Source: Betaproteobacteria bacterium RIFCSPLOWO2_02_FULL_67_26 (GTDB lineage Bacteria > Pseudomonadota > Gammaproteobacteria > Burkholderiales > SG8-41). Taken from it: 44,854 nt of DNA. The stretch lies in the NCBI GenBank assembly GCA_001771935.1, contig MERD01000031.1, positions 1 to 44,854 of the forward strand. Direction: 5' to 3'. Shown here one piece after another: positions 1,807 through 40,904 of this stretch (positions within the stretch are counted from its first letter, which is position 1; every line of letters starts with the position of its first letter). Position numbers and translations under genes: made by a program. The notes beneath the pieces were generated by a model, which worked only from the letters and a program-made list of their open reading frames with translations, searched no databases and was not told the DNA's origin.

Positions 1807-1831
1807 CGGCGTCGGCATTGCACAACTCGAT

Positions 1832-2602: not shown

Positions 2603-2654
2603 TAAACCACTTTCGGTTTCCGTTAGAATACGATGATTTTTAACAATTTTCCTC

Positions 2655-2683
2655 TTGACGGAACTGTGCCTCTTGGCTACCAT
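2655..2683 (+). promoter_or_regulatory. Candidate sigma-70 promoter of mltD
   Basis: TTGACG (2655-2660), a 17-base spacer, then TACCAT (2678-2683). This lies 42 bases upstream of the mltD ATG in an AT-richer 123-base gap. A GAAGGAA ribosome-binding site follows just before the start. Confidence 0.6.
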
Positions 2684-2725
2684 CACGCTCTGCGGTAAAA
2701 GGCGTGTGGTGAGGGAAGGAACCGA

Positions 2726-4084
2726 ATGACGTTAAGAAGTTGGACGACCGGCCTTGCCGCTGCCCTCGTGGCAACCGGCTGCGCGCAGATTCCGACGGGC
2801 GAACCGGACCCCCTGGCCCAGGCCGAGGCCGTCACGCTGCCTGCTCCCGTAGCCGCGCCCGAGCCGCCGCCCACTCCGCCAGCGCCCGCGCAAGCGAAGG
2901 CGCCCGAGCCGCCGCCCCCGCCGGCCGATGTCTGGGAGCGCATCCGTGCCGGGTTCCGGCTGCCCAACCTGAACGGCCCGCTGGTGCAGCAGTGGGAACA
3001 GTATTACTCCAGCCGCCCGGATTACGTCGCGCGCATGGCCGAGCGCGGCGGCCGCTTCCTGTACCACGTGATGGAGGAAGTCGACCGGCGCAAGATGCCG
3101 GCCGAGATCGCGCTGCTGCCGATGATCGAGAGCGCCTATAACCCGCAGGCCTATTCGCGCGCCCACGCCTCGGGCATGTGGCAGTTCATTCCCTCGACCG
3201 GGAAGCTCTACGGGCTGCGTCAGAACTTCTGGTACGACGGGCGGCGCGACGTGCTGGCCGCGACCGGCGCCGCGCTGGATTACCTCGAGAAGCTCTACGC
3301 CCTGTTCGGCGACTGGAACCTCGCGCTCGCCGCGTACAACTGGGGCGAAGGCGCGGTCAGCCGGGCGATCGCGAGGAACCAGGCGAAAGGGCTGCCCGCC
3401 GACTACGAGAGCCTGGCGATGCCGGCGGAGACGCGCAATTACCTGCCCAAGCTGCAGGCGGTGAAGAACATCATCGCCAACCCGGAGCAGTACGGCATCC
3501 AGCTCGCGGACGTCCCGAACCGGCCCTATTTCGCCACCGTCTCCACCCACGGACACATCGACGTGAAGCTCGCCGCGAGCTTCGCCGAAATATCGCTGGA
3601 GGAATTCCGCTTCCTCAATCCGGCGCACAACAAGCCGGTGATCAAGTCCGACGGCTCCGAGACGATCGTGCTGCCGGTGGACAAGGTCGAAGTGTTCCAG
3701 CGCAACCTCCAGGCCCACGACCAGCCCCTGGTGTCCTGGCAGGCCTATACCGTGAAGCGCAGCGACAAGCCGGAGCAGATCGCCGCGAGGAACGGCATGA
3801 CCCTCGCCGAGCTGAAAGCGGTCAACGGCATCAACGGCAAGAAGAGAATCGTCCCCGGGCAGACCCTTATGGTGCCGCTGCGCGGCACCGCCGAACCGAA
3901 CCTGCCCGACCTGCCCGCGCCCAAGGTAACGCTGACGCGCTACCGGCCGAAGGGCCGCTGCGTGCAGGTCAAGAATGGCGTCCGGAAAGTCGTGAAGTGC
4001 CGGGCGCCCGCCAAGAAAGTCCCCGTCTCCAAGAAGGCGGCGCCCAAGAAACAGCCCCCCAAGCGCGTCAACGTCACGCTGTAG
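2726..4084 (+). CDS. mltD: Membrane-bound lytic murein transglycosylase D-like lipoprotein with LysM
   Basis: Cleaves the glycan strands of peptidoglycan to 1,6-anhydromuropeptides, anchored to the outer membrane as a lipoprotein. The 452-residue protein starts with a short signal peptide ending in the lipobox VATGC (Cys at about residue 19). A Pro/Ala-rich spacer follows (about residues 33-70), then the SLT domain: ALLPMIESAYNP carries the catalytic Glu, followed by ASGMWQFIPSTGKLYGL and ALAAYNWGEGAVSRAI. A C-terminal LysM peptidoglycan-binding repeat spans about residues 343-390, preceded by a degenerate one. The tail is unusually rich in Lys and Pro (KKVPVSKKAAPKKQPPKR), which could bind the cell-wall polyanion. 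It converges on yejF with a 12-base gap and no obvious terminator. Confidence 0.93.
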   Translation: MTLRSWTTGLAAALVATGCAQIPTGEPDPLAQAEAVTLPAPVAAPEPPPTPPAPAQAKAPEPPPPPADVWERIRAGFRLPNLNGPLVQQWEQYYSSRPDYVARMAERGGRFLYHVMEEVDRRKMPAEIALLPMIESAYNPQAYSRAHASGMWQFIPSTGKLYGLRQNFWYDGRRDVLAATGAALDYLEKLYALFGDWNLALAAYNWGEGAVSRAIARNQAKGLPADYESLAMPAETRNYLPKLQAVKNIIANPEQYGIQLADVPNRPYFATVSTHGHIDVKLAASFAEISLEEFRFLNPAHNKPVIKSDGSETIVLPVDKVEVFQRNLQAHDQPLVSWQAYTVKRSDKPEQIAARNGMTLAELKAVNGINGKKRIVPGQTLMVPLRGTAEPNLPDLPAPKVTLTRYRPKGRCVQVKNGVRKVVKCRAPAKKVPVSKKAAPKKQPPKRVNVTL

Positions 4085-20708: not shown

Positions 20709-21512
20709 ATGGGCGTCAACCACTACGAAAATTTCCCGGTCGCATCCCTCCTTCTGCCCCCCCGATTTCGCCATCCGGTAGCCCAAATCTACCGCTTTGC
20801 ACGGGAGGCCGACGACTTCGCCGACGAGGGTAACGATCCCGCTGCGCAGCGCATCGCCGCGCTGGACCGGTATCGGGCGGAACTCGACCGCATCGAGCGC
20901 GGCGAGGGCCCGCGCCTGCCGCTGTTCGAGGAGCTCGACGGCATCGTGCGCGAGCACCAGCTGCCGCTTGCCCTGTTTCGCGACCTGCTCGACGCCTTCA
21001 CGCAGGACGTGACGAAGGGCCGTTACGCGAATTACGGCGAGGTGCTCGATTACTGCCGGCGCTCGGCGAATCCGATCGGGCGCCTGCTGCTGCATCTCTT
21101 CGACCGCGCAAGCGGGGATAATCCGGTGTGGTCGGATTCGATCTGCTCGGCCCTGCAGCTCATCAATTTCTGGCAGGACGTGCCGATCGACTACGCGAAG
21201 AACCGCATCTACCTCCCCCAGGACGAGATGGCAACCTATGGCGTGACGGAGCGGCACGTGGCGGAACAGCGGTGCGACGGGAACTGGGTGGCGCTCATGA
21301 GGTTCCAGGTCGAGCGCGCGCGGGCGCTGCTGCAGTCCGGCGCCTCCCTGGGCACGGCGCTGCCCGGCCGCATCGGCCTCGAGATCCGCGTCACCGTGCA
21401 GGGCGGGCTGCGCATACTCGAGAAGATCGAGACCGCGCGCTACGACGTTTTTCGCCAACGGCCCGTTCTGCGATGGCGTGACTGGCCGCTGATTCTGGCG
21501 CGCGCTCTCTGA
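20709..21512 (+). CDS. hpnC: Hydroxysqualene synthase HpnC
   Basis: Converts presqualene diphosphate to hydroxysqualene in the bacterial three-enzyme route to squalene, the hopanoid precursor. The 267-residue protein has the squalene/phytoene synthase fold. The first Asp-rich motif is DDFADE at residues 35-40, and the second region is NFWQDVPIDYAKNRIYLP near 154-171. The N-terminal NHYENFPVAS is characteristic of HpnC rather than HpnD. It is followed after two bases by hpnD, with hpnE about 3 kb downstream. The assignment of the C and D paralogues rests on motif wording and order. Confidence 0.93.
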   Translation: MGVNHYENFPVASLLLPPRFRHPVAQIYRFAREADDFADEGNDPAAQRIAALDRYRAELDRIERGEGPRLPLFEELDGIVREHQLPLALFRDLLDAFTQDVTKGRYANYGEVLDYCRRSANPIGRLLLHLFDRASGDNPVWSDSICSALQLINFWQDVPIDYAKNRIYLPQDEMATYGVTERHVAEQRCDGNWVALMRFQVERARALLQSGASLGTALPGRIGLEIRVTVQGGLRILEKIETARYDVFRQRPVLRWRDWPLILARAL

Positions 21513-21514
21513 AC

Positions 21515-22348
21515 ATGGATCCGCACCAATACTGCCAGCAGCAAGCCGCGGCAAGCGGCTCGAGCTTCTACTACAGCTTCCTGTTCCTGCCGCAGGACCG
21601 CCGGCGCGCCATCACCGCGCTGTACGCGTTTTGCCGCGAAGTGGACGACGTGGTGGACGAATGCTCGGACGCGGCGGTGGCGCGCATGAAGCTCGCCTGG
21701 TGGCGTAACGAGCTGGCGGCGGTCTATCACGGAACACCGCAGCATCCGGTGGCTCGCGCGCTGGGCGACGTCGCCCCCCGCTTTCACCTCGCCGAAGCGC
21801 GGCTGAACGAGATCATCCAGGGCATGGAGATGGACCTGGACAACAGCCGCTACCCCACCTTCGATGCGCTCAAGCTGTATTGTCACCGCGTGGCGGGCGT
21901 GGTGGGACTGCTGTCGGCGGAAATCTTCGGTTACCAGGACCGCCGCACGCTCGAGTACGCGGCGGACCTCGGATTGGCGTTCCAGCTCACCAATATCATC
22001 CGCGACGTGGGCGAGGACGCGCGCCGCGGCCGCATCTACCTGCCGCTGGACGAAATCCAGCGCTTCGAAGTGAGCGTGGAGGACATCCTGCAAGGGCGGG
22101 AGACGGGCAATTTCCACCAGCTGATGGCATTCCAGGTCGAGCGCGCGCTGGCGGTTTACCGCGGGGCATTCGCCAAGCTGCCGGAGCCGGACCGCAGGGC
22201 GCAGCGCGCCGGTATCATCATGGCGGCGATCTACCAGGCGCTGCTCGGGGAAATCCGGCGCGACGGCTGCCGCGTGCTGACGCACCGCGTCTCCCTCACG
22301 CCCGTGCGGAAGTTGTGGATTGCGTGGCGGACCTGGATCAGGGGATGA
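21515..22348 (+). CDS. hpnD: Presqualene diphosphate synthase HpnD
   Basis: Condenses two farnesyl diphosphates into presqualene diphosphate. The 277-residue squalene/phytoene synthase-family protein has DDVVDE at residues 44-49 and the second Asp motif NIIRDVGEDARRGRIYLP near 161-178. The C-terminus ends in a basic hydrophobic stretch (RKLWIAWRTWIRG) that may touch the membrane. The ATG follows the hpnC stop by two bases, so the two are almost certainly co-translated. Confidence 0.93.
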   Translation: MDPHQYCQQQAAASGSSFYYSFLFLPQDRRRAITALYAFCREVDDVVDECSDAAVARMKLAWWRNELAAVYHGTPQHPVARALGDVAPRFHLAEARLNEIIQGMEMDLDNSRYPTFDALKLYCHRVAGVVGLLSAEIFGYQDRRTLEYAADLGLAFQLTNIIRDVGEDARRGRIYLPLDEIQRFEVSVEDILQGRETGNFHQLMAFQVERALAVYRGAFAKLPEPDRRAQRAGIIMAAIYQALLGEIRRDGCRVLTHRVSLTPVRKLWIAWRTWIRG

Positions 22349-25645: not shown

Positions 25646-25672
25646 TCCGGGAATGCGTTGATCGGGGAAAAA

Positions 25673-27322
25673 ATGGCTGAACGCGAATCCATGCAGTACG
25701 ACGTCGTGATCGTGGGCGCCGGCCCCGCCGGGCTCGCGGCGGCGATCCGCCTGAAGCAGCTGGCCGCGCAGCACCAGCACGAAATCAGCGTGTGCGTGCT
25801 GGAGAAGGGCTCGGAGGTCGGCGCGCACATCCTGTCCGGCGCGGTGATGGACCCGCGGGCCCTCAACGAGTTGATCCCGGACTGGCAGCGGCTCAACGCG
25901 CCGCTCAACGCCCCGGTCACCGAGGACCGTTTCCTGTTTTTGACTGAAGGCGCGTCGTATCAAGTGCCCGGCTTCATGCTGCCGGTGTGCTTCCAGAACC
26001 ACGGCATGCACGTGGTGAGCCTGGGCAACGTCTGCCGCTGGCTGGCGCAGCAGGCGGAGGGCCTGGGCGTGGAGATCTTCGCCGGCTTCGCCGCCGCCGA
26101 ATTGTTGTATGGCGAGGATGGATCGGTGCGGGGTGTCGCCACCGGCGACATGGGCATCGGCCGGGATGGCAAGCCGACCGCCAATCATCAACCGGGCATG
26201 GCGCTGGAGGCACGCTATACCTTGTTTGCGGAGGGCTGCCGCGGCCACCTCGGGAAACGGCTGCAGGACCGGTTCCAGCTGCGCGCCGGCGCGGACCCGC
26301 AGGTCTACGGTATCGGGCTGAAGGAATTGTGGGAGATTGCACCGGAGCGGCACCAGCAGGGCCTCGTCGTCCACACCGCGGGCTGGCCGCTTGCGACGGA
26401 CACCTACGGCGGTTCGTTTTTGTACCACCTCGAGAATCGCCAGCTCGCGATCGGCTTCGTGGTCGGCCTCGCCTACACCAATCCCTACCTGAGCCCGTAC
26501 GAGGAGTTCCAGCGCTTCAAGACGCATCCCGCCATCCGGCCGTTTCTCGAAGGCGGCAAGCGCATCGCCTACGGCGCGCGCGCGATCGCGGCGGGCGGAC
26601 TGCAATCCCTGCCCCGGCTCGTCTTCCCCGGCGGTTGCCTGGTGGGGGACGATGCCGGATTCCTCAACGCCTCGCGCATCAAGGGCAGCCACGCCGCGAT
26701 GAAATCGGGAATGCTCGCCGCGGAGGCGGCGTTCGCGGCGCTGCGCGCCGGGCGCTCGCACGACGAGCTCGGGGCCTATCCCGAGGCGTTCCGCGCGGGC
26801 TGGCTCCACGACGAGCTGCACCGTGCGCGCAACTTCAAGCCCTGGATGAGCAAGGGACTGCTGCTCGGCACGCTGATGGTGGGCGTCGACCAGGTGCTGT
26901 TCGGCGGGCGGGCGCCGTGGACGCTGCATCACGGACACGCGGATCACGAAACCCTCAAGACCAAGGCGGAAGCCGAGCCGATCGCGTATCCCAGGCCCGA
27001 CGGCGTCATCACCTTCGACCGGCTGTCCTCGGTCTTCGTCTCGAATACCAACCACGCCGAGGACCAGCCGTGCCATCTCACGCTGAAGGACGCGGCGGTC
27101 CCCATCAAGGTCAATCTCGAGCGCTACGACGCGCCCGAGCAGCGCTACTGTCCCGCCGGTGTCTACGAGATCGTGCGCGATGCGGAGAGCAGGAACCCGC
27201 GGCTGCAGATCAACGCGCAGAACTGCGTACACTGCAAGACCTGCGACATCAAGGACCCGACGCAGAACATCGTGTGGGTCGCGCCCGAGGGCGGCGGCGG
27301 GCCCAACTATCCCAATATGTAG
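25673..27322 (+). CDS. Electron transfer flavoprotein-ubiquinone oxidoreductase
   Basis: Membrane-associated flavoprotein that passes electrons from ETF (reduced by acyl-CoA and other dehydrogenases) to ubiquinone. The 549 residues match the family. The FAD loop DVVIVGAGPAGLAAAIRL is at the N-terminus; SGAVMDPRALNELIP and SYGGSFLYHLE-like elements follow (here TYGGSFLYHLEN). The C-terminal ferredoxin-like part has the 4Fe-4S ligands in YCPAGVYE and NCVHCKTCDIKDPTQNI. The ATG at 25673 gives MAERESMQYD; a TTG at 25658 is an alternative. It links functionally to the beta-oxidation operon 4 kb away. Confidence 0.96.
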   Translation: MAERESMQYDVVIVGAGPAGLAAAIRLKQLAAQHQHEISVCVLEKGSEVGAHILSGAVMDPRALNELIPDWQRLNAPLNAPVTEDRFLFLTEGASYQVPGFMLPVCFQNHGMHVVSLGNVCRWLAQQAEGLGVEIFAGFAAAELLYGEDGSVRGVATGDMGIGRDGKPTANHQPGMALEARYTLFAEGCRGHLGKRLQDRFQLRAGADPQVYGIGLKELWEIAPERHQQGLVVHTAGWPLATDTYGGSFLYHLENRQLAIGFVVGLAYTNPYLSPYEEFQRFKTHPAIRPFLEGGKRIAYGARAIAAGGLQSLPRLVFPGGCLVGDDAGFLNASRIKGSHAAMKSGMLAAEAAFAALRAGRSHDELGAYPEAFRAGWLHDELHRARNFKPWMSKGLLLGTLMVGVDQVLFGGRAPWTLHHGHADHETLKTKAEAEPIAYPRPDGVITFDRLSSVFVSNTNHAEDQPCHLTLKDAAVPIKVNLERYDAPEQRYCPAGVYEIVRDAESRNPRLQINAQNCVHCKTCDIKDPTQNIVWVAPEGGGGPNYPNM

Positions 27323-27395
27323 TCCAACCCGCGTCGGACGTGAACGCTGAGTTAGAATACCGGGCAAATTCCAATGGAGGAGGCAAGGCCGCCCG

Positions 27396-28421
27396 ATGGC
27401 AACACCGGAGGACAAGAGCAAGAATCCGCCGAAGGATGTCAGCACCATCCCGCCAGGGAGGGTTCAAGGGGCGGAGACGGTTCCGCCGGTAAAGCCGAAA
27501 GACATCGCCACCATCCCGCCGCAGACGCGCAAAGCGGACGACACGATCCCGCCCGGAAAACCGCTGGACGTCGTGACCCCCCCGCCGGCGGGAACCAGTG
27601 GCCAGGTTCCCGGCGAGCAGGGCCAGGCGCTCTATCTGCGCTCGATCAACGAGCAACTGATGGGATGGGACGACCCGCGCGCGATGCTCAAGCGGGCGCT
27701 CCACGAGAATCATTTCCTGCTGCTGTGCCAGAGAATCCTTTCGCTGAAGTCCGGCGCGGCGGATTCGCAGTGCTTCGAGGTGCTGCTGCGGCTCAGGCAG
27801 GAGGAGGAGAACCTGCTGCCGCCGGGCGGCTTCCTCGACGTCGCGGAAAGCCTCGGCATGATGGCCGAGATCGATTTCTGGGTGGTCCGCAATCTGCTCG
27901 CGTGGGGCGCCGAAAGAATACGCGCCAATCCGGCGGCGCAGCTGCCCATGATGTGCGTCAACGTCTCCTCGGCGGGGCTCATCGACGACCGGTTCGTGAA
28001 ATTCGTCCGTCACGAGCTGCAGAGGACCGGCTACCCGCCCCGCGCCCTGTGCTTCGAGATCAACGAGCACGATGTCATCGAGTATCACGAGCACGCGCAG
28101 AAGTTCATCTCGGCGCTGAAGCCCGGCTGCCGCATCACGCTCGACGCGTTCGGCAGCGTCAAGGTGTCGTTCTCGCACCTGACGGGGCTCGCCATCGATT
28201 TCCTCAAGATCGACGGCGCGATCATCCAGAACGTCGTTCGCGACCCGGCCGCCCTCGCCAAGGCGCGCGCCATCACGCACGCCAGCCAGCGGACCGGCCT
28301 GCGCACCATAGCGGAGTGCGTCGAGGACAAGGAGACGCTCGAAAAGCTGCGCGGCATCGGAGTGGATTACGCGCAGGGCTTCGGGGTCGCCCGGCCCGAT
28401 CCGCTCGGCAAGCTTTCCTGA
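27396..28421 (+). CDS. Degenerate EAL-domain protein with N-terminal Thr-Pro-Pro 11-residue repeats
   Basis: A 341-residue protein. Residues 14-68 are five 11-residue repeats with Thr at 17, 28, 39, 50 and 61, each followed by IPP, VPP or PPP; this region is probably disordered. Residues about 95-338 form an EAL (c-di-GMP phosphodiesterase) domain. EVLLR replaces EALLR, CVNVS and CFEINEHD correspond to the Asn and Glu motifs, FLKIDGAII supplies the Lys, and IAECVED matches AEGVE. The metal-binding DDFG motif reads DAFGS, losing one Asp, so activity is doubtful and a c-di-GMP sensor or scaffold role is possible. GGAGGAGG lies 12 bases before the ATG. There is no membrane span or signal peptide. 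Confidence 0.88.
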   Translation: MATPEDKSKNPPKDVSTIPPGRVQGAETVPPVKPKDIATIPPQTRKADDTIPPGKPLDVVTPPPAGTSGQVPGEQGQALYLRSINEQLMGWDDPRAMLKRALHENHFLLLCQRILSLKSGAADSQCFEVLLRLRQEEENLLPPGGFLDVAESLGMMAEIDFWVVRNLLAWGAERIRANPAAQLPMMCVNVSSAGLIDDRFVKFVRHELQRTGYPPRALCFEINEHDVIEYHEHAQKFISALKPGCRITLDAFGSVKVSFSHLTGLAIDFLKIDGAIIQNVVRDPAALAKARAITHASQRTGLRTIAECVEDKETLEKLRGIGVDYAQGFGVARPDPLGKLS

Positions 28422-28474
28422 GCCCCGGCGCTGTGGCATCCTTGAGGGCTGACGCCACCCGCCCCGGAGGACCC

Positions 28475-29221
28475 ATGCGCATTCCGACCGTAACCGCCCG
28501 CACGCTCGGCCTGCTGGCCGGCCTTGCGCTCGCGCCGCAGCCCGCGCTGGCGCTGAAGCTGCTGACCGAGGAGAACCCCCCGCTCAACTACACCGAGGGC
28601 AAGAAGCTGACCGGCATGGCGACCGACGTCGTGCGGGAAATGCTCAAGCGGGCGCAGATCAAGCCCGAAATCGAGGTCATGTCCTGGGACAAGGCGTACG
28701 AGAAGGCGCAGGCCGACAAGGAAACCTGCCTCTACGCCACGGCGCGGCTGCCGAACCGCGAGAATGCGTTCAAGTGGGTCGGCCCGATCGCCATGAACAA
28801 GTGGGGCTTGTACGCCCTCGGCGGGTTCAAGCCGGAACTCAAGACGATACCGGAGGTGAGGCCGTTCCGGGTCGGCGGCGTCGAGCGCGACGCCAAGGTC
28901 GAGTTCCTGCGCGAAAAGGGCGTCACCAACGTCGTCGAGGAGAAGGACGACCGGCAGAATCCTCCGAAGCTCACGCTGAACCGCAAGGAAGCGCTGAAGA
29001 TCGACCTGTGGGTCACCAGCGTCGCCAGCGCCAGGAAGGTCGCCGCCCAGGCCAAGGTGCCCGGCATCAAGCTGGTCCTGGTCGTGAACGAGGCCGAGTC
29101 GTACCTGGCCTGCAGCCCGCGCACGGCCCCGGCCACCCTGAAGGCGCTGGCGGCCGCGCTGGACAGCATGAAGAAGGACGGGTCCTTCGAGAAGATCGTC
29201 AAGGCCTACGAGGGCCGGTAG
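28475..29221 (+). CDS. Periplasmic solute-binding protein (SBP_bac_3-like)
   Basis: A 248-residue exported protein. The signal peptide (about residues 1-26, LGLLAGLALAPQPALA) is followed by a small type II binding-protein fold: LKLLTEENPPLNYTEGKKLTGMATDVVREMLKRA at the mature N-terminus, then YATARLPNRENAFKWVGP. This wording is typical of amino-acid/polar-solute binding proteins, many of which occur without their own permease. A GGAGG site sits 5 bases before the ATG. It is 53 bases after the EAL gene on the same strand, so it may be co-transcribed and could give that protein a sensory input. The ligand is unknown. Confidence 0.87.
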   Translation: MRIPTVTARTLGLLAGLALAPQPALALKLLTEENPPLNYTEGKKLTGMATDVVREMLKRAQIKPEIEVMSWDKAYEKAQADKETCLYATARLPNRENAFKWVGPIAMNKWGLYALGGFKPELKTIPEVRPFRVGGVERDAKVEFLREKGVTNVVEEKDDRQNPPKLTLNRKEALKIDLWVTSVASARKVAAQAKVPGIKLVLVVNEAESYLACSPRTAPATLKALAAALDSMKKDGSFEKIVKAYEGR

Positions 29222-29236
29222 TCACGCCTCACCGGC

Positions 29237-29866
29237 TCACGACCCGCCCAGCAGCGCGGCGCGCAGCCGCCCGTCCACCGGCTTGGCGCCGATCCAGATC
29301 TTCAGCAGCGACCGGAAGAAATCGTTTCCGGGGATCGTGATCCGCTCGACGCCTTCGACGGTGATGCGCGTGCCGGTGCGGGGCAGGAAGTCGATGGTGA
29401 CGATGCCACCGCGCTTCAATATCCCGATCGAGTTCATCATGCGGTTGAGATCGGTGAGCCGCTTCTGGATGAGCGTGATCTCCGCGGGGATATGGTTGGC
29501 CTCGATCGCGTCGTTGAGCGAGGCGGTCAGCTCCCTGGCGGTCAACTCCTCGATCACCACGTGCATCAGGATGCGCTTCGGGCCGGCGTCCGCGAGCACC
29601 TCCGCCGCGCTCTTCTTCCGCGCCGTGAGGTAGAGCGCGCCGACATATACCGGCACCGCCATCAGCTTGTGCCGCATGCCCGCCCCGTTCAGCACCAGCT
29701 CGGTCTTGCCGACCACGGCCCGGTCCGGAATCCTGACGCCGTCGACCTCGACCGCCAGCGCCGCGCCGCAAAGGATCCCCGCGGCGCTGAGCATGCCGGT
29801 CAGTGCGTGCTTGAAGCCCCTACCGCGGCCCAGGCGCCCTGACTCGTTTCGGTTTTCGCCACTCAT
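29237..29866 (-). CDS. Exported chalcone-isomerase-fold protein (Chalcone_3 family)
   Basis: A 209-residue protein with a basic N-terminus and a signal or anchor segment (about residues 19-38, ALTGMLSAAGILCGAALA). The chalcone isomerase-like domain follows, with VEVDGVRIPDRAVVGKTELVL and NGAGMRHKLMAVPVYVGALYL, then IGILKRGGIVTIDFLPRTGT. It is probably not a flavonoid enzyme. Related CHI-fold proteins bind fatty acids, and this gene is last in a fatty-acid degradation cluster, so lipid binding in the periplasm is a reasonable inference. Its start ATG lies inside a heptamer repeat, giving several alternative in-register GTG and ATG codons (29869 is an in-frame GTG). It converges with the solute-binding protein gene. 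Confidence 0.82.
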   Translation of the reverse strand: MSGENRNESGRLGRGRGFKHALTGMLSAAGILCGAALAVEVDGVRIPDRAVVGKTELVLNGAGMRHKLMAVPVYVGALYLTARKKSAAEVLADAGPKRILMHVVIEELTARELTASLNDAIEANHIPAEITLIQKRLTDLNRMMNSIGILKRGGIVTIDFLPRTGTRITVEGVERITIPGNDFFRSLLKIWIGAKPVDGRLRAALLGGS

Positions 29867-29894
29867 CACTCATCACCCATCACTCATCACCCTT
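29860..29894 (-). repeat. Heptamer tract GTGATGR at the thiolase/chalcone-isomerase-like junction
   Basis: Five head-to-tail units on the plus strand: CACTCAT, CACTCAT, CACCCAT, CACTCAT, CACCCTT. Read in the gene direction these are GTGATGR-type (ATGAGTG) units. They begin in the thiolase stop codon and end over the next start codon. Confidence 0.85.
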
Positions 29895-31093
29895 CAGAGG
29901 GCCTCGAACACCCCGGCGGCGCCCATACCGGTACCGATGCACATGGTCACCATGCCGTACTTCTTCTGGTGGCGGCGCAGGCCGTGGAGCAGCGTCGCCA
30001 CGCGGATCGCGCCGGTGGCGCCGAGCGGATGCCCGAGCGCGATGGCGCCGCCGAGAGGATTGACCCGGGCGCGGTCGAGGCCGAGGTCCCTGATCACCGC
30101 CAGCGACTGCGCGGCGAACGCCTCGTTCAACTCGATCCAGTCGACGTCGTCCGCCTTGAGCCCCACCTGCTTCAGCGCCTTGGGAATCGCCTTGACCGGC
30201 CCGATGCCCATGATGTCCGGCGGCACGCCCGCCACCGCGTAGCCCATGAAGCGGCCGAGCGGGCGCAGGTTGCAGCGCGCGAGCGCCGATTCGCTCATCA
30301 ATACCACCGCCGCCGCCCCGTCCGACATCTGCGAGCTGTTGCCGGCCGTCACGCTGCCTTTCACCGAGAACGCGGGCCGCAGCTTCGCGAGCGCCTCGGG
30401 CGAGGTATCGCGGCGCGGGCCTTCGTCGTTCACCGCTTCGCGCGCGTTGACCCGCACCTCGCGCTTCGCGAGGTCCGGCAAGCGCTCGTTCACCGCGTAC
30501 GGCGTCACCTCGTCCCTGAATTCGCCGCTGTCGGCCGCCCGCACCGCGCGGCGGTGGCTTTCCGCGGCGAACAGGTCCTGCTCCTCGCGGCTCACCTTCC
30601 ACTGGGCGGCCACTTTCTCGGCGGTAATGCCCATGCCGTAGCCGATTGCCACGTTTTCGTTGTTCTCGAAAACCGCCGGACTGAAGGACGGCTTGTTGCC
30701 CCCCATCGGCACCATGCTCATGCTCTCGGTGCCGGCGGCGACCATGACGTCCGCCTCGCCCAGCCGGATGCGGTCCGCCGCGAGCGCCACCGCCTGCACG
30801 CCCGAGGAGCAGAAGCGGTTGACCGTCATGCCCGACACGGTGTTGGGAAAGCCCGCCAGCAGGAGCCCGATGCGCGCGACGTTCATCCCCTGCTCCGCTT
30901 CCGGCATCGCGCAGCCGACGATCACGTCCTCGATGACCGCGGGATCGAGCCCGGGGCACTTCGCGAGCGCGCTCTTCAGCGCGTGCGCGAGCAGGTCGTC
31001 CGGCCGCACGTTCCTGAACATTCCGCGCGGCGCCTTGCCGACGGGTGTGCGGACGGCGGCGACTATGTATGCGTCCTGGACTTGCTTAGCCAT
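29894..31093 (-). CDS. fadA: Acetyl-CoA acyltransferase (thiolase, FadA type)
   Basis: Final step of beta-oxidation: thiolytic release of acetyl-CoA from 3-ketoacyl-CoA. The 399-residue protein starts MAKQVQDAYIVAAVRTPVGK. The nucleophilic Cys95 is in VNRFCSSGVQA, His is in ALGHPLGATGA and the second Cys in CIGTGMGAAG. NEAFAAQSL is also typical. The ATG at 31093 has GGAGA upstream; the reading frame happens to stay open far into fadN, but that part is antisense-like. It is separated from the upstream fadN-type gene by a structured heptamer element. Confidence 0.95.
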   Translation of the reverse strand: MAKQVQDAYIVAAVRTPVGKAPRGMFRNVRPDDLLAHALKSALAKCPGLDPAVIEDVIVGCAMPEAEQGMNVARIGLLLAGFPNTVSGMTVNRFCSSGVQAVALAADRIRLGEADVMVAAGTESMSMVPMGGNKPSFSPAVFENNENVAIGYGMGITAEKVAAQWKVSREEQDLFAAESHRRAVRAADSGEFRDEVTPYAVNERLPDLAKREVRVNAREAVNDEGPRRDTSPEALAKLRPAFSVKGSVTAGNSSQMSDGAAAVVLMSESALARCNLRPLGRFMGYAVAGVPPDIMGIGPVKAIPKALKQVGLKADDVDWIELNEAFAAQSLAVIRDLGLDRARVNPLGGAIALGHPLGATGAIRVATLLHGLRRHQKKYGMVTMCIGTGMGAAGVFEAL

Positions 31094-31109
31094 GGCGGTT
31101 CTCCATCCG

Positions 31110-31220
31110 AAGGCACAAGGCAAAAGGCATAAGGCAAAAGGGGCGCAGCCCAACGGGCTGCCATTTGCTGTTCCTACCCTTGTGACTTGTGACTTGTGCC
31201 TTTTGCCTTTTGCCTTTTGC
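31110..31220. repeat. Structured element: inverted heptamer arms around a hairpin
   Basis: Left arm 31110-31137 has four heptamers (AAGGCAC, AAGGCAA, AAGGCAT, AAGGCAA). Right arm 31179-31220 has six (CTTGTGA twice, CTTGTGC, CTTTTGC three times), largely the reverse complement of the left. The centre holds a perfect stem, GCAGCCC (31145-31151) with GGGCTGC (31155-31161). The right arm runs into the fadN stop codon. Confidence 0.85.
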
Positions 31221-31221
31221 C

Positions 31222-33711
31222 TTAGTTTCTGAGGGGCTTCCCGGTCTTCAAGGTATGCTCGATCCGCGCCTGGGTCTTCTCGGTGGCGATCAGCTCCATG
31301 AAGTGCTTGCGCTCGAGATCGAGGAACCACTGCTCGTCCACCAGGCTGCCCCCCTCGATATCGCCGCCGCACATCACGATCGCGATCTTGTGGCCGATCA
31401 GGTAGTCGTGCTCCGAGATGTGCCCGCCGGCCAGCAGGTTCTCCATGAACGCGCGGATCGTCGCGATCTGGCTGCGTCCAGCGGCCGGTATCGCGACCTG
31501 CCTGAGCGGCGGACGGTAGCCGGCGGCGGCGAGCGAGCGCACTTCCGCCTTGGCGATCTCGAGCTGCTCGAAGCGGTTCATCACGATGCGATCGGTCGCG
31601 CGCAGGTAGCCGATGTCGCGCGCCTGCTCCGCGCTGCGCCCCACTTCGGCCATCGCCACCGCCTTGAAGTACTTCTGGATGAACGGCGACATGTCCCCGC
31701 CCTTGGCGTCGGCCGCCGCCCGCATCGCGAATTCCTTGCAGCCGCCGCCCGCCGGCAGCAGTCCCACGCCGGCCTCCACCAGCCCGATGTAGCTCTCGAG
31801 CGTCGCCACCGCCCGGTCGCTGTGCATGACGAATTCGCAGCCTCCGCCGAGCGCCAGCCCGTCCACGGCGGCGACGGTCGGAACCATCGAGTACTTGAGC
31901 GCCTGCGTCGTGTCCTGGAACTGCTCGACCAGCTTCTCCACCTCGGCGAGCTTGCCCGCCATCAACTGGTCGGCGACGCCGATGCTTCGCGCCGCCTTCA
32001 AGGCGAGCGATTCGGCTTCGCGCGTGACCTGCCGGAACAGCCGGCCGAGCGCGGACGGCTTGGACGGCCTGCCGCCGCCGGCGGGCGTTTTCCTGAGGTT
32101 CGCGCCGACGGAGAACGGCGGCTCGGTCTGCCAGATGACGAGGCCCATGTAGTTGCGCTCGGCCTCGACCAGCGCCTGCAGCACCCCCTCGAGCACGTCG
32201 TCGCCGATGGCATGCATGCGGCTCTTGAAGCTGACGATCGCGATGTCGTCGCGGGTGTGCCAGCAGCGCACGCCTTCGGTCTCGAAGATGGTCTCGCCGT
32301 ACTTGACCGCCTCGCCCAGCAGGCGGTCGGGAAATGGCTGGCGGCGGTAGACCGGCAGGCGAGAGCGCGGCTTCCAGGCGTTTGCCGCGGGCGAGAACGA
32401 GCCCTGCTCGCCGTGCACGCCCTTGCGCGAGGTTTCCATCGCCCACGCCGGCAACGGCGTACCGGTCATTCCTTTTCCCGCCGCGATGTCCTCGGCAATC
32501 CATTTGGCGAGCGTATGCCAGCCCGCGGCCTGCCAGATCTCGAACGGCCCCTGGGTCCAGCCGAAGCCCCACCGGATCGCAAGATCGAGGTCGCGCGCGT
32601 TGTCCGCGATCTCGGCCAGGCTCGCCGCGCAGTAATGGAAAGCATCGCGGTAGATGGACCAGAGGAATTGCGCCTGCGGGTGCGTCGAGCCGTGCAGCAG
32701 CTCGAAGCGCGCCGCCACGTCCTTGTTCTTGAGGATCTCGACCACGCCCTCGTCCGCTTTGCCGTCGGACGGCCGGTAATTCCGCGTCTTGAGATCGAGC
32801 ACGTGGATGTCGGGGCCGATCTTCTGGTAGACGCCCTTGCGGGTCTTCTGTCCGAGCGCGCCCTGGTCGATCAGTTTCTTCAGCCACGCCGGGACCTCGT
32901 AGTACTGGTGCCACGGATCATTCGGCAGCGTCTCCTTCATGGTGTTGACGACGTGCGCGAACGTGTCGAGACCCACCACGTCGGCGGTGCGGAAGGTCGC
33001 GCTGCGCGGGCGCCCGATGAGCGTGCCGGTGAGCGCGTCCACGACGTCGAAGCCGATGCCGAGCCGCTCGGCGTGATGGACCGTCGCCAGCATCGAGAAC
33101 ACGCCGACGCGGTTGGCGATGAAGTTGGGCGTGTCCTTCGCGCGGATCACGCCCTTGCCGAGCACGGTGACGAGGAACTTCTCGAGATCGTCGAGGATCG
33201 CCGGATCGGTGTCGGCGGTGGCGATCAGCTCGACCAGGTGCATGTAGCGCGGCGGGTTGAAAAAGTGCACGCCGCAGAAGCGCCGGCGCTGCCCCTCCGG
33301 AAACGCCTGCGCGAGCCTGTTGATCGAGAGGCCCGAGGTGTTGCTGGCGAAAATCGCGTGGTCGGCGAGATGCGGGGCGACCTTCTGGTAGAGGTCGGCT
33401 TTCCAGTCCATGCGCTCGGAGATCGCCTCGATCACGAGGTCGCACTCCTTCAGCTGCTCGAGGTGCTGGCCGTAGTTGGCGGGCTGGATCAGGCCGGCGC
33501 GCGCCGCGCTCGCGAGCGGGCTCGGCTCGAGCTTCCTGAGGTTCTCGATCGCCTTCAGCACGTTGCCGTTGGGATCGCCGTCCTTGGCCGGAAGCTCATA
33601 GAGCACGGCGGAAACATTGGCGTTGACGAGGTGCGCCGCGATCTGCGCGCCCATGACGCCGGCGCCCAGCACGGCGGCCTTGCGCACGATGAAGGGCGTA
33701 GCGGCGGCCAT
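31222..33711 (-). CDS. fadN: Bifunctional 3-hydroxyacyl-CoA dehydrogenase / enoyl-CoA hydratase (FadN-like domain order)
   Basis: Catalyses two steps of beta-oxidation. The 829-residue protein has the NAD-binding dehydrogenase first (AAVLGAGVMGAQIAAHL near residue 12, NTSGLSI, GVHFFNPPRYMHLVE with the catalytic His) and a 3HCDH C-terminal region with DTPNFIANRVG. The crotonase (hydratase) part comes at about residues 480-720, including LALGGGCEFVMHSDRA and VEAGVGLLPAGGG with a catalytic Glu. This order is that of Bacillus FadN and the reverse of E. coli FadB/FadJ. It is 20 bases after fadL and upstream of fadA. The symbol is by domain architecture only. Confidence 0.92.
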   Translation of the reverse strand: MAAATPFIVRKAAVLGAGVMGAQIAAHLVNANVSAVLYELPAKDGDPNGNVLKAIENLRKLEPSPLASAARAGLIQPANYGQHLEQLKECDLVIEAISERMDWKADLYQKVAPHLADHAIFASNTSGLSINRLAQAFPEGQRRRFCGVHFFNPPRYMHLVELIATADTDPAILDDLEKFLVTVLGKGVIRAKDTPNFIANRVGVFSMLATVHHAERLGIGFDVVDALTGTLIGRPRSATFRTADVVGLDTFAHVVNTMKETLPNDPWHQYYEVPAWLKKLIDQGALGQKTRKGVYQKIGPDIHVLDLKTRNYRPSDGKADEGVVEILKNKDVAARFELLHGSTHPQAQFLWSIYRDAFHYCAASLAEIADNARDLDLAIRWGFGWTQGPFEIWQAAGWHTLAKWIAEDIAAGKGMTGTPLPAWAMETSRKGVHGEQGSFSPAANAWKPRSRLPVYRRQPFPDRLLGEAVKYGETIFETEGVRCWHTRDDIAIVSFKSRMHAIGDDVLEGVLQALVEAERNYMGLVIWQTEPPFSVGANLRKTPAGGGRPSKPSALGRLFRQVTREAESLALKAARSIGVADQLMAGKLAEVEKLVEQFQDTTQALKYSMVPTVAAVDGLALGGGCEFVMHSDRAVATLESYIGLVEAGVGLLPAGGGCKEFAMRAAADAKGGDMSPFIQKYFKAVAMAEVGRSAEQARDIGYLRATDRIVMNRFEQLEIAKAEVRSLAAAGYRPPLRQVAIPAAGRSQIATIRAFMENLLAGGHISEHDYLIGHKIAIVMCGGDIEGGSLVDEQWFLDLERKHFMELIATEKTQARIEHTLKTGKPLRN

Positions 33712-33731
33712 TGGACTCCCCTTCGACTGTG

Positions 33732-35102
33732 CTAGAACGTGTGGCGGTACTGGATGCTCAGGATGTCGACCTTGCTGTCGAAATTGCCGATCAACGCGCC
33801 GCGCCCCGCCACCAGCGCGGGCGACAGCGCCGGCTGGCCGACCATGTTGATCAAGGGATCCTTGACGAACAGGTGCGCGTAGCCGAAATCGAGCGTGCCG
33901 GCCTGAGAAACCTTGTATTGCGCGCCGATCGCCAGCCAGGTGCGGTCCTGGTCCGGGATGCGCGGCGTCCGGTAGGTGTCCTGCGTGGGGGTCTGGTCAT
34001 ACGCGATGCCGAAGCGCACGGTCCACGGCGGGCTCAGGCGGTAATTGGCGCCGATGCCGACGCGCCAGGTATCGGACCAGTAGAACGGCGTGCTCTCGAG
34101 CGTGGCGCCGTTGCTCCGGATGATGTCCAGCGTCTTCAAGCCGCTCCAGCCCGTCCACGTCGCATCCGCGAGCACGTCCCACTGGTTGTTGACCCGGTGC
34201 TTCAGCGCGAATGACAGCGTGGCCGGCATCTTCACGTTCGCCGTCACCGGGCCGTCCCCGGCCTGGTTGAACACCGGCGCCAGGCCGAGCAGCGCGTTCA
34301 CCGCGGCGGGACGTCCCTGGTAGGTAACGTCCCCGGACAACTTGAAATGCATCGCCGAGCGATAGGCGATGCCCAGATCGGTATCCGGCCCCGGCTTGAT
34401 CATGATGCCCGCGTTGTAGCCCCAGGCGCCGTCATCGGCCGAGATCTTGTTGCTGCCCTCGGTGTTGTTTGGCACGCCGGGGATGCCGCCCGCCGAGGCG
34501 AGGAAGCTGTAGTTCACCGCCTTCGTCAGCTCGCCCTCGAAGGTCTGGTAGTTGACGCCGAAGCCGAGCGAGATCTGGTCGTTGAACTTGACGGCGAACG
34601 ACGGGTTGATGTTGATGGCCTTCACTTCCGACTTGAGGGCGTGGAAGCGTCCCATCCAGGTCGCGTCGTAATCCGTCTTGAGGCCGAACGGCGCGTTGAC
34701 GCCGACCCCGAGGTACAGCTTCGGATTGAGCTGCCACGACAGGTACAGGTTGGGGACGAACGCCAGATCGCCGGCGTCGCCTCCGTTCCCGTTCAGCGCG
34801 TACGGGCCGGCGCCGAGTATTGTGGAGACTGCTGGCCGGGTCCCGGCGTTGTTGAACTCGGCCGACGGAACGATGAGGTGGCCGGCGACGACGACCTGCC
34901 GTCCCTGCAGCCGCGTCATCCCCGCGGGATTGAAGTAGATCGTGCTCGCGTCATCCGCTGCGGCGGCGGCACCCGCGTAGGCATTCCCCAGGCCGCTTGC
35001 GCTCTGCTCGATCAGCGCGAAACCCGAAGCCTGCGCCCCGCCGGAAACTGCGGCCAGCGCCGCGGATACCGCGAACGGGATCAGTGTCTTGTAGCGCGTC
35101 AT
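33732..35102 (-). CDS. fadL: Outer-membrane long-chain fatty-acid transporter FadL
   Basis: A 456-residue outer-membrane beta-barrel for uptake of long-chain fatty acids. The signal peptide ends near AQASG. The mature N-terminus SGFALIEQSASGLGNAYAG followed by DDASTIYFNPAGMTRL is the FadL hatch signature. The NPAGM motif is intact and the final residue is Phe, as expected for barrel assembly (IQYRHTF). A GGGGGAGA site precedes the ATG. It lies between the thioesterase and the fadN gene; a possible TAATAT -10 lies in the 75-base gap upstream. Confidence 0.95.
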   Translation of the reverse strand: MTRYKTLIPFAVSAALAAVSGGAQASGFALIEQSASGLGNAYAGAAAAADDASTIYFNPAGMTRLQGRQVVVAGHLIVPSAEFNNAGTRPAVSTILGAGPYALNGNGGDAGDLAFVPNLYLSWQLNPKLYLGVGVNAPFGLKTDYDATWMGRFHALKSEVKAININPSFAVKFNDQISLGFGVNYQTFEGELTKAVNYSFLASAGGIPGVPNNTEGSNKISADDGAWGYNAGIMIKPGPDTDLGIAYRSAMHFKLSGDVTYQGRPAAVNALLGLAPVFNQAGDGPVTANVKMPATLSFALKHRVNNQWDVLADATWTGWSGLKTLDIIRSNGATLESTPFYWSDTWRVGIGANYRLSPPWTVRFGIAYDQTPTQDTYRTPRIPDQDRTWLAIGAQYKVSQAGTLDFGYAHLFVKDPLINMVGQPALSPALVAGRGALIGNFDSKVDILSIQYRHTF

Positions 35103-35177
35103 ACGTTCTCCCCCTGTACGAAAACCATATTACTCCCGGCGGAATTTGATGCCGCAACTTCGCGCGGTGGCGCCGGA

Positions 35178-35588
35178 TTAGTGTTGCGCGGAAACAACAC
35201 GCGGGTTGCGGTTCTCGTCGATCGCCACGTACGTCAGCGTCGCCTCCGTGACCTTCACGACCTGCTCGCGCTCCGGCTTGCGCTGCGCGTAGACCTCGAC
35301 GTTCACCGTGATCGAGGTGCGCCCGACGCGCACCACCTCGGCGTAGAAGCTGACGATGTCGCCCACCAGGACCGGTTGCTTGAACTGGAACGAATTGACC
35401 GCCACCGTCGCGACGCGGCCGCGCGCGAGCCGCACCGCCGGGATGCTGCCCGCGATGTCCACCTGCGCCATGATCCACCCGCCGAATATATCGCCGCTCT
35501 GATTCTCGTCGGCGGGCATGGGCGCGACGCGGAGCGTCACTTCCTTGCCGGCCGGGAGGGTGGTGGTGGGGCGGTCAGTGACCGGCAT
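35178..35588 (-). CDS. Acyl-CoA thioesterase, YciA-like hotdog fold
   Basis: A small cytoplasmic thioesterase (136 residues) that hydrolyses acyl-CoA. The hotdog core has MPADENQSGDIFGGWIMAQVD, the catalytic/CoA-binding signature of the YciA/BFIT group (N-x-x-G-x-x-F-G-G). VAVNSFQFKQPVLVGDIVSFYAEV and TYVAIDENRNPR follow. The start at 35588 overlaps the end of the acyl-CoA synthetase gene by 14 bases, so it is translated from the same message. Pairing a synthetase with a thioesterase suggests control of CoA release during fatty-acid breakdown. Confidence 0.93.
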   Translation of the reverse strand: MPVTDRPTTTLPAGKEVTLRVAPMPADENQSGDIFGGWIMAQVDIAGSIPAVRLARGRVATVAVNSFQFKQPVLVGDIVSFYAEVVRVGRTSITVNVEVYAQRKPEREQVVKVTEATLTYVAIDENRNPRVVSAQH

Positions 35589-37377
35589 ACATGCGGTCGA
35601 TTTCCGCGTTGAACTTTTCCATCACCTTGGCGCGTTTCAGCTTGAGCGTCGGCGTGAGGAGCCCGTTCTCCACCGACCACGGCTCGAGCGTCGCGGTGAT
35701 GCGGCGGACCTGCGCGTAACCCGGGAATTCCTTCATCTGGGCGGCGATGCGCCCGCGCAGGATTTCCTCGGCCTGCCTGGAGCCCACCGTCGCCGGCGCC
35801 GGGTCGAGCCCGCTCTCCACGCAGAGCTGCTTCCAGAGGTCCGCGTTGAGCACCGTCATCACCGTCAGATAGGGCTTGCCCTCGCCCAGCAGCATCACCT
35901 GCTCGAACAGGCGGTCGCGCGCGATGGCGGCCTCGATATCCACGGGCGGCACTTTCTCGCCGTTCGAGAGCACGATGATCTCCTTCAGCCGCCCGGTGAT
36001 GAAGACGTGCCCCTCGCCGTCGATGCGCGCGGTGTCGCCGGAATTGAGCCAGCCGTCCGCGCCGAGGATCGCCTGGGTCGCCTCCGCATTGTTCCAGTAG
36101 CCGAGCATGACGTTCGGGCCCTTGATCAGGAGCGCGTTGTTGTCCCCGATCCTGAGCTCCACGTCCGGCAATGCCGTTCCGACGCTCGCCGGCAGGTTGT
36201 CGTCCGGGCGGTTGGCTGCCGCGACCGGGCTGCACTCCGTCATGCCGAATCCCTGGAGCACCGTGAGCCCGAGGCCGAGAAACACCCGCGAGATGTCGGG
36301 CGGCAGCGCCGCGCCGCCGGAGATCGCCGCGCGCACGCGCCCGCCGAGGCGCGCCAGGATCTTTTTCGCAACCAGCGCGTTCAGCACCGGCCACAGCAGG
36401 AAGGACGGCTGCCACGGCCCGCGGCCCTGCGCGTGCTCGAAGCGCGCGTAGCCGATTTCCACCGCGAGGAGGAACAGCTTCTTCTTCAGCGGCGGGCCCT
36501 GGTCGAGCGCGTCGCGGATGCGGCCGTACACGCGCTCGTAGATGCGGGGCACCGAGATCAGCAGCGTCGGGCGCACCGACTGCAGGTCCTCCCCGAGCAC
36601 CGGGATGCCCCGTGAATACGCCGTCGTGGAGCCGGTCAGGATGGTGAGGTAATAGCCGCAGGTGCGCTCGAACGTGTGCGACAGCGGCAGGAACGACAGA
36701 AACAGGTCGTCGTGCCCGGCGGTCAGCACCGCGCAGCTCGCCGCGGCGTTGGACAGGATGTTGTGGTGCGACAGCATCACGCCCTTCGGCCGGCCGGTCG
36801 TGCCCGACGTATAGACGATGGTGGCGAGCGCCTTCGGATCGCGCGGCACGTGGCGGGACTGCCCGCCCTGGGCCGGCAGCCATTCCCCGATCCACCTCAA
36901 CCTCGGCTCGCCCGGGTTGGGCACCGAGTTGACGGTCAGGATGCGGTTCACGTTCCCCAGCTGGTGCTTGACGTCGGACAGCGCCCGCCACTGCTCGGCG
37001 CCCTCGATCAACAGCGCCTTGCAGCCCGAGTCGCGGATGATGTAGGCGACGTTGTCCGCCCGGTCCTGCGTGTAGAGCGGCACCACCACGAGCCCCAGCC
37101 CGAGCGCCGCCTGGTCGAAGGTCACCCACTCCGGCGAGTTCTTCAGCATTACGGCGACGCGGTCGCCGGCCTTGAGCCCGTCCTTCTCCAGCGCCGCCTG
37201 CCAGCGCGCCACCTGGTGGTCGATCTGCGCCCAGCTGTAGTCGCGCCAGTTCTTGTGCTGCTCGTTGTACTCGCGGTACGCGACGAGGTCCGGCGTGCGC
37301 TTCACGCGCTCGCGGAACAGGCCGTCGAGCGTCACCGCCGCTTCGACGGGAATCAGGTGGCCGGGTTGTTGTGGCAT
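35575..37377 (-). CDS. Long-chain acyl-CoA synthetase (AMP-forming, FadD15/ACSBG-like)
   Basis: Activates fatty acids to acyl-CoA with ATP. The 600-residue adenylate-forming enzyme shows the P-loop TIVYTSGTTGRPKGVMLSH, GFGMTECSPV, and the hinge/C-terminal motif WLNSGDTARIDGEGHVFITG with RLKEIIVLSNGEKVPP. The GEKVPP wording and length resemble the FAA1/ACSBG subgroup rather than E. coli FadD. There is no signal peptide. It overlaps the thioesterase gene and follows the SDR gene by 49 bases. Confidence 0.93.
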   Translation of the reverse strand: MPQQPGHLIPVEAAVTLDGLFRERVKRTPDLVAYREYNEQHKNWRDYSWAQIDHQVARWQAALEKDGLKAGDRVAVMLKNSPEWVTFDQAALGLGLVVVPLYTQDRADNVAYIIRDSGCKALLIEGAEQWRALSDVKHQLGNVNRILTVNSVPNPGEPRLRWIGEWLPAQGGQSRHVPRDPKALATIVYTSGTTGRPKGVMLSHHNILSNAAASCAVLTAGHDDLFLSFLPLSHTFERTCGYYLTILTGSTTAYSRGIPVLGEDLQSVRPTLLISVPRIYERVYGRIRDALDQGPPLKKKLFLLAVEIGYARFEHAQGRGPWQPSFLLWPVLNALVAKKILARLGGRVRAAISGGAALPPDISRVFLGLGLTVLQGFGMTECSPVAAANRPDDNLPASVGTALPDVELRIGDNNALLIKGPNVMLGYWNNAEATQAILGADGWLNSGDTARIDGEGHVFITGRLKEIIVLSNGEKVPPVDIEAAIARDRLFEQVMLLGEGKPYLTVMTVLNADLWKQLCVESGLDPAPATVGSRQAEEILRGRIAAQMKEFPGYAQVRRITATLEPWSVENGLLTPTLKLKRAKVMEKFNAEIDRMYAGH

Positions 37378-37426
37378 CGCTCCTCCGTCTCGCTCTACGC
37401 CTGGTGATGCGTGATTTCGACCTTGA

Positions 37427-38245
37427 TCAGTCGAGGAACAAGTCGGTATACAGGCTGGTTCCGGGAGTGACCGCGTACTGATCGAAGTCGGTGACGCCCT
37501 CCTCCCGCAGCACCGTCTCGTCGATGTAGAAGTTGCCGGTGGCGCCGCGGCTGTCGCGGCTCAGTATGGCATGCGCGGCATCGGCCATGATCGAGGGCTT
37601 GCGGCTCGCCTTGAGGATCGCCTGCGGAAAATTCACTGCGATCGCGGCGGTGGCGATGGTGGTGCGCGGCCACAGCGAATTCACCGCGATGCCCTGCGCG
37701 CGGAATTCCTCCGCCATTCCCAGGGTGCACAGGCTCATGCCATATTTTGCCATGGTATAGGCGACGTGCCCCTTGAACCACCGTGCATTCATGTTGAGCG
37801 GCGGCGAGAGGGTCAGTATGTGGGGATTGGCCGCTTTTGCGAGGTGGGGAATGCAGGCCTGCGAGCAGACGAAGGTGCCGCGCAGGTTGACCGCCAGCAT
37901 GAGGTCCAGGCGCTTGACCGGGGTGTCGAGCGTGCCGGTCAGCGAGATCGCGCTCGCGTTGTTGACCAGGCCATCGATCCCGCCGAACGCCTTGACGGCG
38001 GAGCGGACCGCGGCGGCCACCGCGTCGGCATCCCGCACGTCGAGCTGGATCGCGAGCGCCTTGCCGCCGGCGGCCTCGATTTCCTTCGCGACACTATGTA
38101 TGGTGCCCGGCAGTTTCGGATGCGGCTCGGCCGACTTGCCGGTCACGACGACGTTCGCGCCGTCGCGCGCGCAGCGGAGCGCGATCTCGCGCCCGATCCC
38201 GCGCGTCGCACCGGTAATGAAGATCGTTTTGCCCTTGAGCCCCAT
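37427..38245 (-). CDS. SDR family oxidoreductase, HSDL2-like
   Basis: A 272-residue SDR. The cofactor loop TGATRGIGREIAL and LVNNASAISLTGT are intact. The active site YTMAK with upstream Ser in LTLSPPLN is canonical, unlike the other SDR in this window. The stretch TGKSAEPHPKLPGTIHS and the C-terminal STAR-type ending are typical of hydroxysteroid dehydrogenase-like protein 2, a group linked to fatty-acid metabolism. The ATG at 38245 is embedded in a heptamer tract; the in-frame GTG at 38248 is an alternative start. It lies between fadE and the acyl-CoA synthetase gene. Confidence 0.9.
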   Translation of the reverse strand: MGLKGKTIFITGATRGIGREIALRCARDGANVVVTGKSAEPHPKLPGTIHSVAKEIEAAGGKALAIQLDVRDADAVAAAVRSAVKAFGGIDGLVNNASAISLTGTLDTPVKRLDLMLAVNLRGTFVCSQACIPHLAKAANPHILTLSPPLNMNARWFKGHVAYTMAKYGMSLCTLGMAEEFRAQGIAVNSLWPRTTIATAAIAVNFPQAILKASRKPSIMADAAHAILSRDSRGATGNFYIDETVLREEGVTDFDQYAVTPGTSLYTDLFLD

Positions 38246-38262
38246 CACCCATCACTCATCAC
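38243..38262 (-). repeat. Heptamer tract GTGATGR at the fadE/SDR junction
   Basis: Units CACCCAT (38246-38252) and CACTCAT (38253-38259) with partial units at both ends fill nearly the whole 20-base gap between the fadE stop and the SDR start. The SDR start codon is part of the tract. Confidence 0.8.
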
Positions 38263-38265
38263 GCC

Positions 38266-40812: not shown

Positions 40813-40904
40813 GAGTGCCCCTTTGTTCGAGCGGGAAGTTTAACCCAGCCGGGCGCGCGGGAGCGTGTGCTACCATCAATTCACTTCTCAAGCACGAGCG
40901 CGAT
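40813..40904. promoter_or_regulatory. Divergent regulatory region between fadE and the ACP-FAAL-PlsC gene
   Basis: The only non-coding space serving two opposite lipid operons. On the minus strand TAAACT (40842-40837) could be a fadE -10; on the plus strand TACCAT (40871-40876) could be a -10. Neither has a clear -35. I found no recognisable FadR- or PsrA-type operator. Confidence 0.4.

Follow-up and report, generated by a model that had tools for sequence, protein, structure and literature searches.

A Thr-x-Pro-Pro array of 11-residue period in the tail of a degenerate EAL-domain protein from a betaproteobacterial genome

Genes and features of the locus

The window, i.e. the whole stretch of 44,854 nucleotides analyzed here, comes from the genome of Betaproteobacteria bacterium RIFCSPLOWO2_02_FULL_67_26. 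At 27396-28421 (+) an open frame encodes a protein of 341 residues with a repeat tail predicted to be disordered (residues 1-73), a linker helix (residues 74-89; 27615-27662, +) and a degenerate EAL domain (residues 96-334; 27681-28397, +). The helix is conserved in the alignment of relatives and also present in the structural model. The GC3 of the gene is 0.79 for residues 1-75 and 0.90 for residues 76-341. A possible ribosome-binding site, GGAGGAGG, can be read 12 bases 5' of the ATG (27376-27383, +), and an AAGG at 27385-27388 lies closer to this ATG than GGAGGAGG.

Directly upstream lies the ETF-QO gene (25658-27322, +; assigned by Pfam), a conserved neighbor of this EAL family. Of 30 relative loci, 21 have it adjacent to the EAL gene, with about 1.5 kb covered on each side. 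The region around the EAL gene (25658-40812) is occupied by fatty-acid oxidation genes: ETF-QO, a 3-hydroxyacyl-CoA dehydrogenase/enoyl-CoA hydratase, a FadL-like protein, an AMP-ligase and an acyl-CoA dehydrogenase. Further on, a single open frame (40815-43760, +) carries PP-binding, AMP-binding and acyltransferase domains and is possibly an acyl-ACP synthetase/acyltransferase fusion. At 20709-22348 (+) there are two adjoining squalene/phytoene synthase genes, a pairing like that of hopanoid (HpnC/HpnD-type) loci.

The EAL domain

The EAL domain matches the PF00563 profile over residues 96-334 with E=8.1e-50 and 169.8 bits (cut-off 31.3), which places it within the family and relates the protein to enzymes that degrade the signal molecule cyclic di-GMP. 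The top structural match by Foldseek is the EAL domain of RbdA (8pps, E=5.8e-23, TM-score 0.89 by target length), followed by FimX EAL structures, including FimX-PilZ complexes.

When the motif columns are compared with RbdA and 34 relatives, DAFG is found at residues 250-253 (28143-28154, +), where the catalytic DDFG is expected. A catalytic EAL domain has both metal-binding Asp of this motif, and here the second is gone. It is the sole motif residue lost: the E of EAL and the subsequent N, E, first Asp, K, E and Q are all present. The passages on PA3825 in PMC5301497 describe these two Asp as binding metals M1 and M2, with Asp161 as M2 ligand, and FimX as inactive and devoid of the DDFGTG motif. 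By inferred residue mapping, the lost Asp would correspond to Asp161. The window protein is thus probably non-catalytic, going by its motifs. Residual or weak phosphodiesterase activity may be possible, since E, N, E, D, K, E and Q are kept and RbdA is the nearest solved relative.

The second Asp is likewise missing in 33 of the 34 relatives (L029 alone keeps it). The degeneracy is therefore characteristic of the family and independent of the repeats.

The Thr-x-Pro-Pro array

Within the tail, the motif Thr-x-Pro-Pro begins at residues 17, 28, 39, 50 and 61 (TIPP, TVPP, TIPP, TIPP and TPPP), and it is absent from the rest of the 341 residues. The five units follow each other directly on the plus strand: TIPPGRVQGAE (unit 1, residues 17-27, 27444-27476), TVPPVKPKDIA (unit 2, residues 28-38, 27477-27509), TIPPQTRKADD (unit 3, residues 39-49, 27510-27542), TIPPGKPLDVV (unit 4, residues 50-60, 27543-27575) and TPPPAGTSGQV (unit 5, residues 61-71, 27576-27608), the last being the most divergent. 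They are preceded by NPPKDVS (residues 10-16, 27423-27443, +), which resembles the second half of units 2 and 4 and may represent a partial unit without Thr.

The array is real and non-random. Among 200,000 shuffled versions of residues 1-75, 5 had a periodic T-x-P-P run of three and none a run of four or five, and the chance that five such blocks spanning 48 residues have equal gaps is 1 in 4495. A preliminary description of this DNA had spoken of five exact 11-residue repeats. This is correct for the spacing and for T-x-P-P, but does not extend to the 7-residue linkers, where units have 0-3 of 7 residues in common. It had also placed acidic residues before the Thr and basic residues after it, a pattern that needs refinement. 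The acidic position alternates between -3 (D14, D36 and D58 for Thr17, Thr39 and Thr61) and -1 or -1/-2 (E27 for Thr28; D48 and D49 for Thr50), while a basic residue follows the motif in units 1-4 and not in unit 5. Overall, residues 1-73 contain 17 Pro, 9 Lys/Arg and 8 Asp/Glu.

The claim that the array is disordered agrees with an AlphaFold2 model of the 341-residue protein, which was run with a 33-row alignment. Its mean pLDDT is 79.9 and most of the EAL barrel exceeds 90, residues 12-77 fall below 50, and no secondary structure is assigned up to residue 73.

The prolines themselves offer one explanation for the tail. As a general idea (PMC4739656), ribosomes stall at runs of prolines, and EF-P overcomes the stalling. 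The early Pro-Pro stretches of the tail (PP at residues 11, 19, 30, 41 and 52, PPP at 62-64) could accordingly slow the ribosome and render expression EF-P-dependent. Such translation control would leave the five invariant Thr at fixed spacing unexplained, and most of the motifs are PP, a weaker staller than PPP. Among the roles weighed here we consider it the least probable.

Probable duplication and age of the array

A weak 22-residue super-repeat underlies the array. The self-match of its DNA peaks at 66 bp (0.519, against 0.402 at 33 bp), a value reached in 17 of 5000 codon shuffles in which the motif codons were kept. Units 2 and 4 form the best-matching pair of units, and their linker score was reached in 161 of 20,000 shuffles. 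Taken against the shuffles, these two signals make it probable that duplication of a 22-residue block gave rise to part of the array. The alternation of the acidic position (-3 at Thr17/39/61, -1 at Thr28/50) agrees with such a block.

At the DNA level such a duplication would not be recent. At the third positions of the T, P and P codons, 17 of 30 comparisons agree (0.567), close to the roughly 0.51 expected for random synonymous choice, a figure taken from the T and P codon usage of the same gene outside the array. The codons thus do differ between units, as had been stated before, and their near-random level of difference argues against fresh DNA slippage. For the linker codons, matches amount to 57 of 140 at positions 1 and 2 and to 23 of 70 at position 3. 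The identity of 60 out of 60 at positions 1 and 2 of the T, P and P codons follows by construction, as the units were defined by the motif, and carries no weight as evidence. The duplication signal in the DNA has mostly decayed, with the T-x-P-P motif and its spacing intact. This would be consistent with selection on the protein pattern, for which a single sequence is no proof.

Relatives of the EAL protein and distribution of the array

At E<=1e-60, 36 of 74 family genomes contain a total of 42 matches, the window protein being one of them. Of the 41 relatives, 34 were examined (left out were one each in genomes G044, G047, G048, G049 and G034, and two in G007). They fall into two types, membrane proteins of TM-PAS-EAL layout and short soluble EAL proteins whose tails are variable and likewise short; TM and PAS are here labels that we read from the sequences. 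Genes for the two types stand in tandem in G021, G013 and G024. A tree of 36 rows groups the window protein with 8 short EAL proteins at a support of 88/90, which is under the starred level of the tool. All 8 proteins of this short clade have lost the Glu of IAE, which the window protein keeps. The TM-PAS half finds no match in the window's genome (94.43% complete); the same query in a local tblastn search retrieves 25 relative loci besides its own. Given the grouping with the short clade and the lack of a TM-PAS match in the genome, the window gene is probably a short paralogue. Its TM-PAS partner gene has probably been lost or lies outside the assembly.

Two candidate sources of the array were rejected. 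As a remnant of the TM-PAS half it gives no credible match (best local E=0.14), and the corresponding genome search was empty. As for an ancestral unit in relatives, the N-terminal tail of L034 (MIKPPPPGTRKDVT) resembles one unit, but 189 of 5000 shuffles scored as high, which is not significant after seven tests. The other six tails tested, of L032, L035, L018b, L025b, L037 and L038, are not notable either (1050 to 3157 of 5000 shuffles as high).

The preliminary description had named homologues without the repeats as a refutation of its reading, and such homologues are what is found. None of the 34 relatives has two T-x-P-P motifs 11 residues apart (one, L019, has a single TLPP), and a pattern search for T[IV]PP-7-T[IV]PP, which is independent of the relatives sampled, finds it in one genome out of the 74 of the family, namely that of the window, which contains no second spaced T[IV]PP pair, even with flexible spacing. 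At wider scope, two T[IV]PP 11 apart occur in 6 of 399 genomes of the order, again including the window's own, and three in a row in one of 369 genomes of the class, the window's own. Of the other five, G157 has its pair in a secreted-looking repeat protein (see the comparison below). The pairs in G292 and in G429/G348 (the latter two share one) appear to have arisen by chance, in open frames that are long or short. The pair in G197 belongs to a frame of 436 residues unrelated to the EAL protein, which presumably resembles urea carboxylase-associated proteins. Apart from one unrelated TVPP repeat protein, the array is therefore unique to the window's genome among the genomes searched. Searches of the open-licence literature returned nothing for the repeat by name, for the combination of EAL, FHA, kinase and proline-rich region, or for multivalent, disordered or EAL repeats; for bacterial kinase motifs only unrelated work was returned.

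This narrow distribution brings in a second explanation, in which the tail is a passive Pro-rich spacer that arose by tandem duplication in one lineage, binds no sequence-specific partner and owes its regularity to that duplication. Such a spacer would fit the predicted disorder, the 66-bp periodicity, the short and variable tails of the short branch and the fact that none of the 34 relatives examined has the array. What speaks against it is that linkers and silent sites are near chance identity and yet T, P, P and the spacing are intact in 5 of 5 units. A neutral spacer of such age should have lost some of its motifs. A spacer is a serious possibility nonetheless, nearly as likely as the docking or tethering tail that is considered below.

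Kinases, FHA domains and the Thr sites

Multisite phosphorylation of the Thr was also put forward in the preliminary description, here by a Hanks-type kinase and with an FHA domain as reader. Five evenly spaced Thr in a tail predicted to be disordered, with acidic residues at -1 or -3, would suit such a role, and the genome search for kinases and FHA proteins that it had proposed indeed yields 8 Pkinase and 4 FHA matches in the window's genome. These domains do not track the array, however: Pkinase is found in 71 and FHA in 72 of the 74 family genomes, the array in one. As both are family-wide, their presence is not specific evidence for phosphorylation of the array. The Thr sites are not conserved either, as 0 of 34 relatives have the array. 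We know of no strong FHA preference for Pro at +3. Proline-directed kinases require Pro at +1, which occurs in unit 5 alone, so that such a kinase would suit one of the five units. Phosphorylation of the tail is for these reasons considered unlikely.

A more elaborate model would combine these elements. The protein would be a soluble, non-catalytic c-di-GMP receptor whose Thr array is phosphorylated at multiple sites, with a Hanks-type kinase setting the number of FHA proteins recruited. If true, this kinase-set recruitment would join c-di-GMP and Ser/Thr-kinase signaling in one protein, a proposal that we rate as highly improbable.

Within the kinase and FHA loci of the window's genome, T[IVL]PP occurs in three open frames of >280 codons. 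By our frame assignment, two of these are in L047, where one frame, antisense to the kinase, has a TLPP and another, read out of frame, a TVPP. The third, in L050, carries the kinase and has a TVPP. At G000:C57 40346-40537 (-) and 41563-42318 (-), outside the window, an FHA domain is found just past a Ser/Thr kinase with an open frame of 874 aa. The same adjacency is seen in several family genomes (e.g. G053:C282, G058:C246 and G054:C110) and looks like a conserved gene pair. The best Pkinase match of the family search, G017:C267:89-817, contains 5 TAG and 1 TAA; this contig is perhaps a eukaryotic contaminant with a changed code.

A possible docking or tethering tail

The best reading of the array is a lineage-specific N-terminal tail, disordered according to the model. 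As to its role, we prefer multivalent docking or tethering, on an EAL protein that is probably non-catalytic, with a probability of roughly 0.4; docking had also been raised in the preliminary description. The gene would have descended from the short soluble branch of the EAL family. Its tail would have grown in part when a block of 22 residues was duplicated and would have diverged afterwards, with T-[I/V/P]-P-P retained at fixed spacing. Each of the five motifs would dock or tether weakly, and together they would bring a partner to the c-di-GMP-binding domain.

In favor of docking are the periodicity far beyond that of shuffles and the predicted disorder of residues 12-77 beside a confident EAL barrel. 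Moreover, a recent origin does not account for the regularity, since the silent sites are about as alike as chance predicts and motif and spacing are still in place. Against it, no partner is indicated, nor does the genome hold a second spaced T[IV]PP pair. The restriction to one genome also means that conservation of the motif or of the unit count cannot be shown. The anatomy is much more certain than this role: the analysis shows the period, the predicted disorder, the lost Asp, the ETF-QO locus and the lack of the array in the 34 relatives.

If the tail binds a partner, the growth of such a repeat tail would have given a new output to a second-messenger receptor that has lost catalysis. If the tail is phosphorylated, it would directly link two signaling systems. 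At present, the array stands as a well-marked oddity of one genome, its function without support beyond that genome.

Comparison with known systems

Among the closest known systems are the ETF-QO-adjacent EAL genes, TM-PAS-EAL and short, of the same bacterial family. Most have the same locus, with proteins 41-61% identical to the window protein, and they have the same degenerate loop, of the D-x-F-G-S-V-K-V-S-F type in most. Unlike the window protein, none of the 34 has a T-x-P-P array.

A comparable repeat is seen in L055 of G157, a predicted secreted protein with five copies of TVPP(N/S)N(G/S)KSGT and one TVPPRNGTSSA (G157:C42, about 55241-55416, -). This repeat also has 11 residues and starts with TVPP. 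Its copies are near-identical and recent, and follow what reads as an apparent signal peptide; the C-terminal part differs and is without an EAL domain. It is not seen as a homologue and counts as an independent TVPP array of period 11.

Among solved EAL domains, RbdA from P. aeruginosa (PA0861; PDB 8pps, 5xgb/5xgd/5xge) is the closest by sequence (E=8.4e-47) and by fold. Both EAL domains have E, N, E, the first Asp, K, E and Q at the motif positions. RbdA has DDF and a PAS-GGDEF-EAL layout, whereas the window protein has DAF and a lone EAL domain with a repeat tail.

The EAL domain of FimX (Pseudomonas/Xanthomonas; PDB 3hv8, 4fou and 4afy) is degenerate like that of the window protein and forms the second group of matches by sequence and fold. 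A degenerate EAL domain of FimX type would have FimX as its nearest relative; the window domain is closer to RbdA on both measures. The EAL domains of RbdA and FimX bind c-di-GMP, and that of FimX also recruits a protein, which is counted in favor of docking. FimX serves as the model of a c-di-GMP receptor that is non-catalytic and docks a partner; the window protein differs from it in keeping the first Asp of DDFG, in being without GGDEF and in having a repeat tail.
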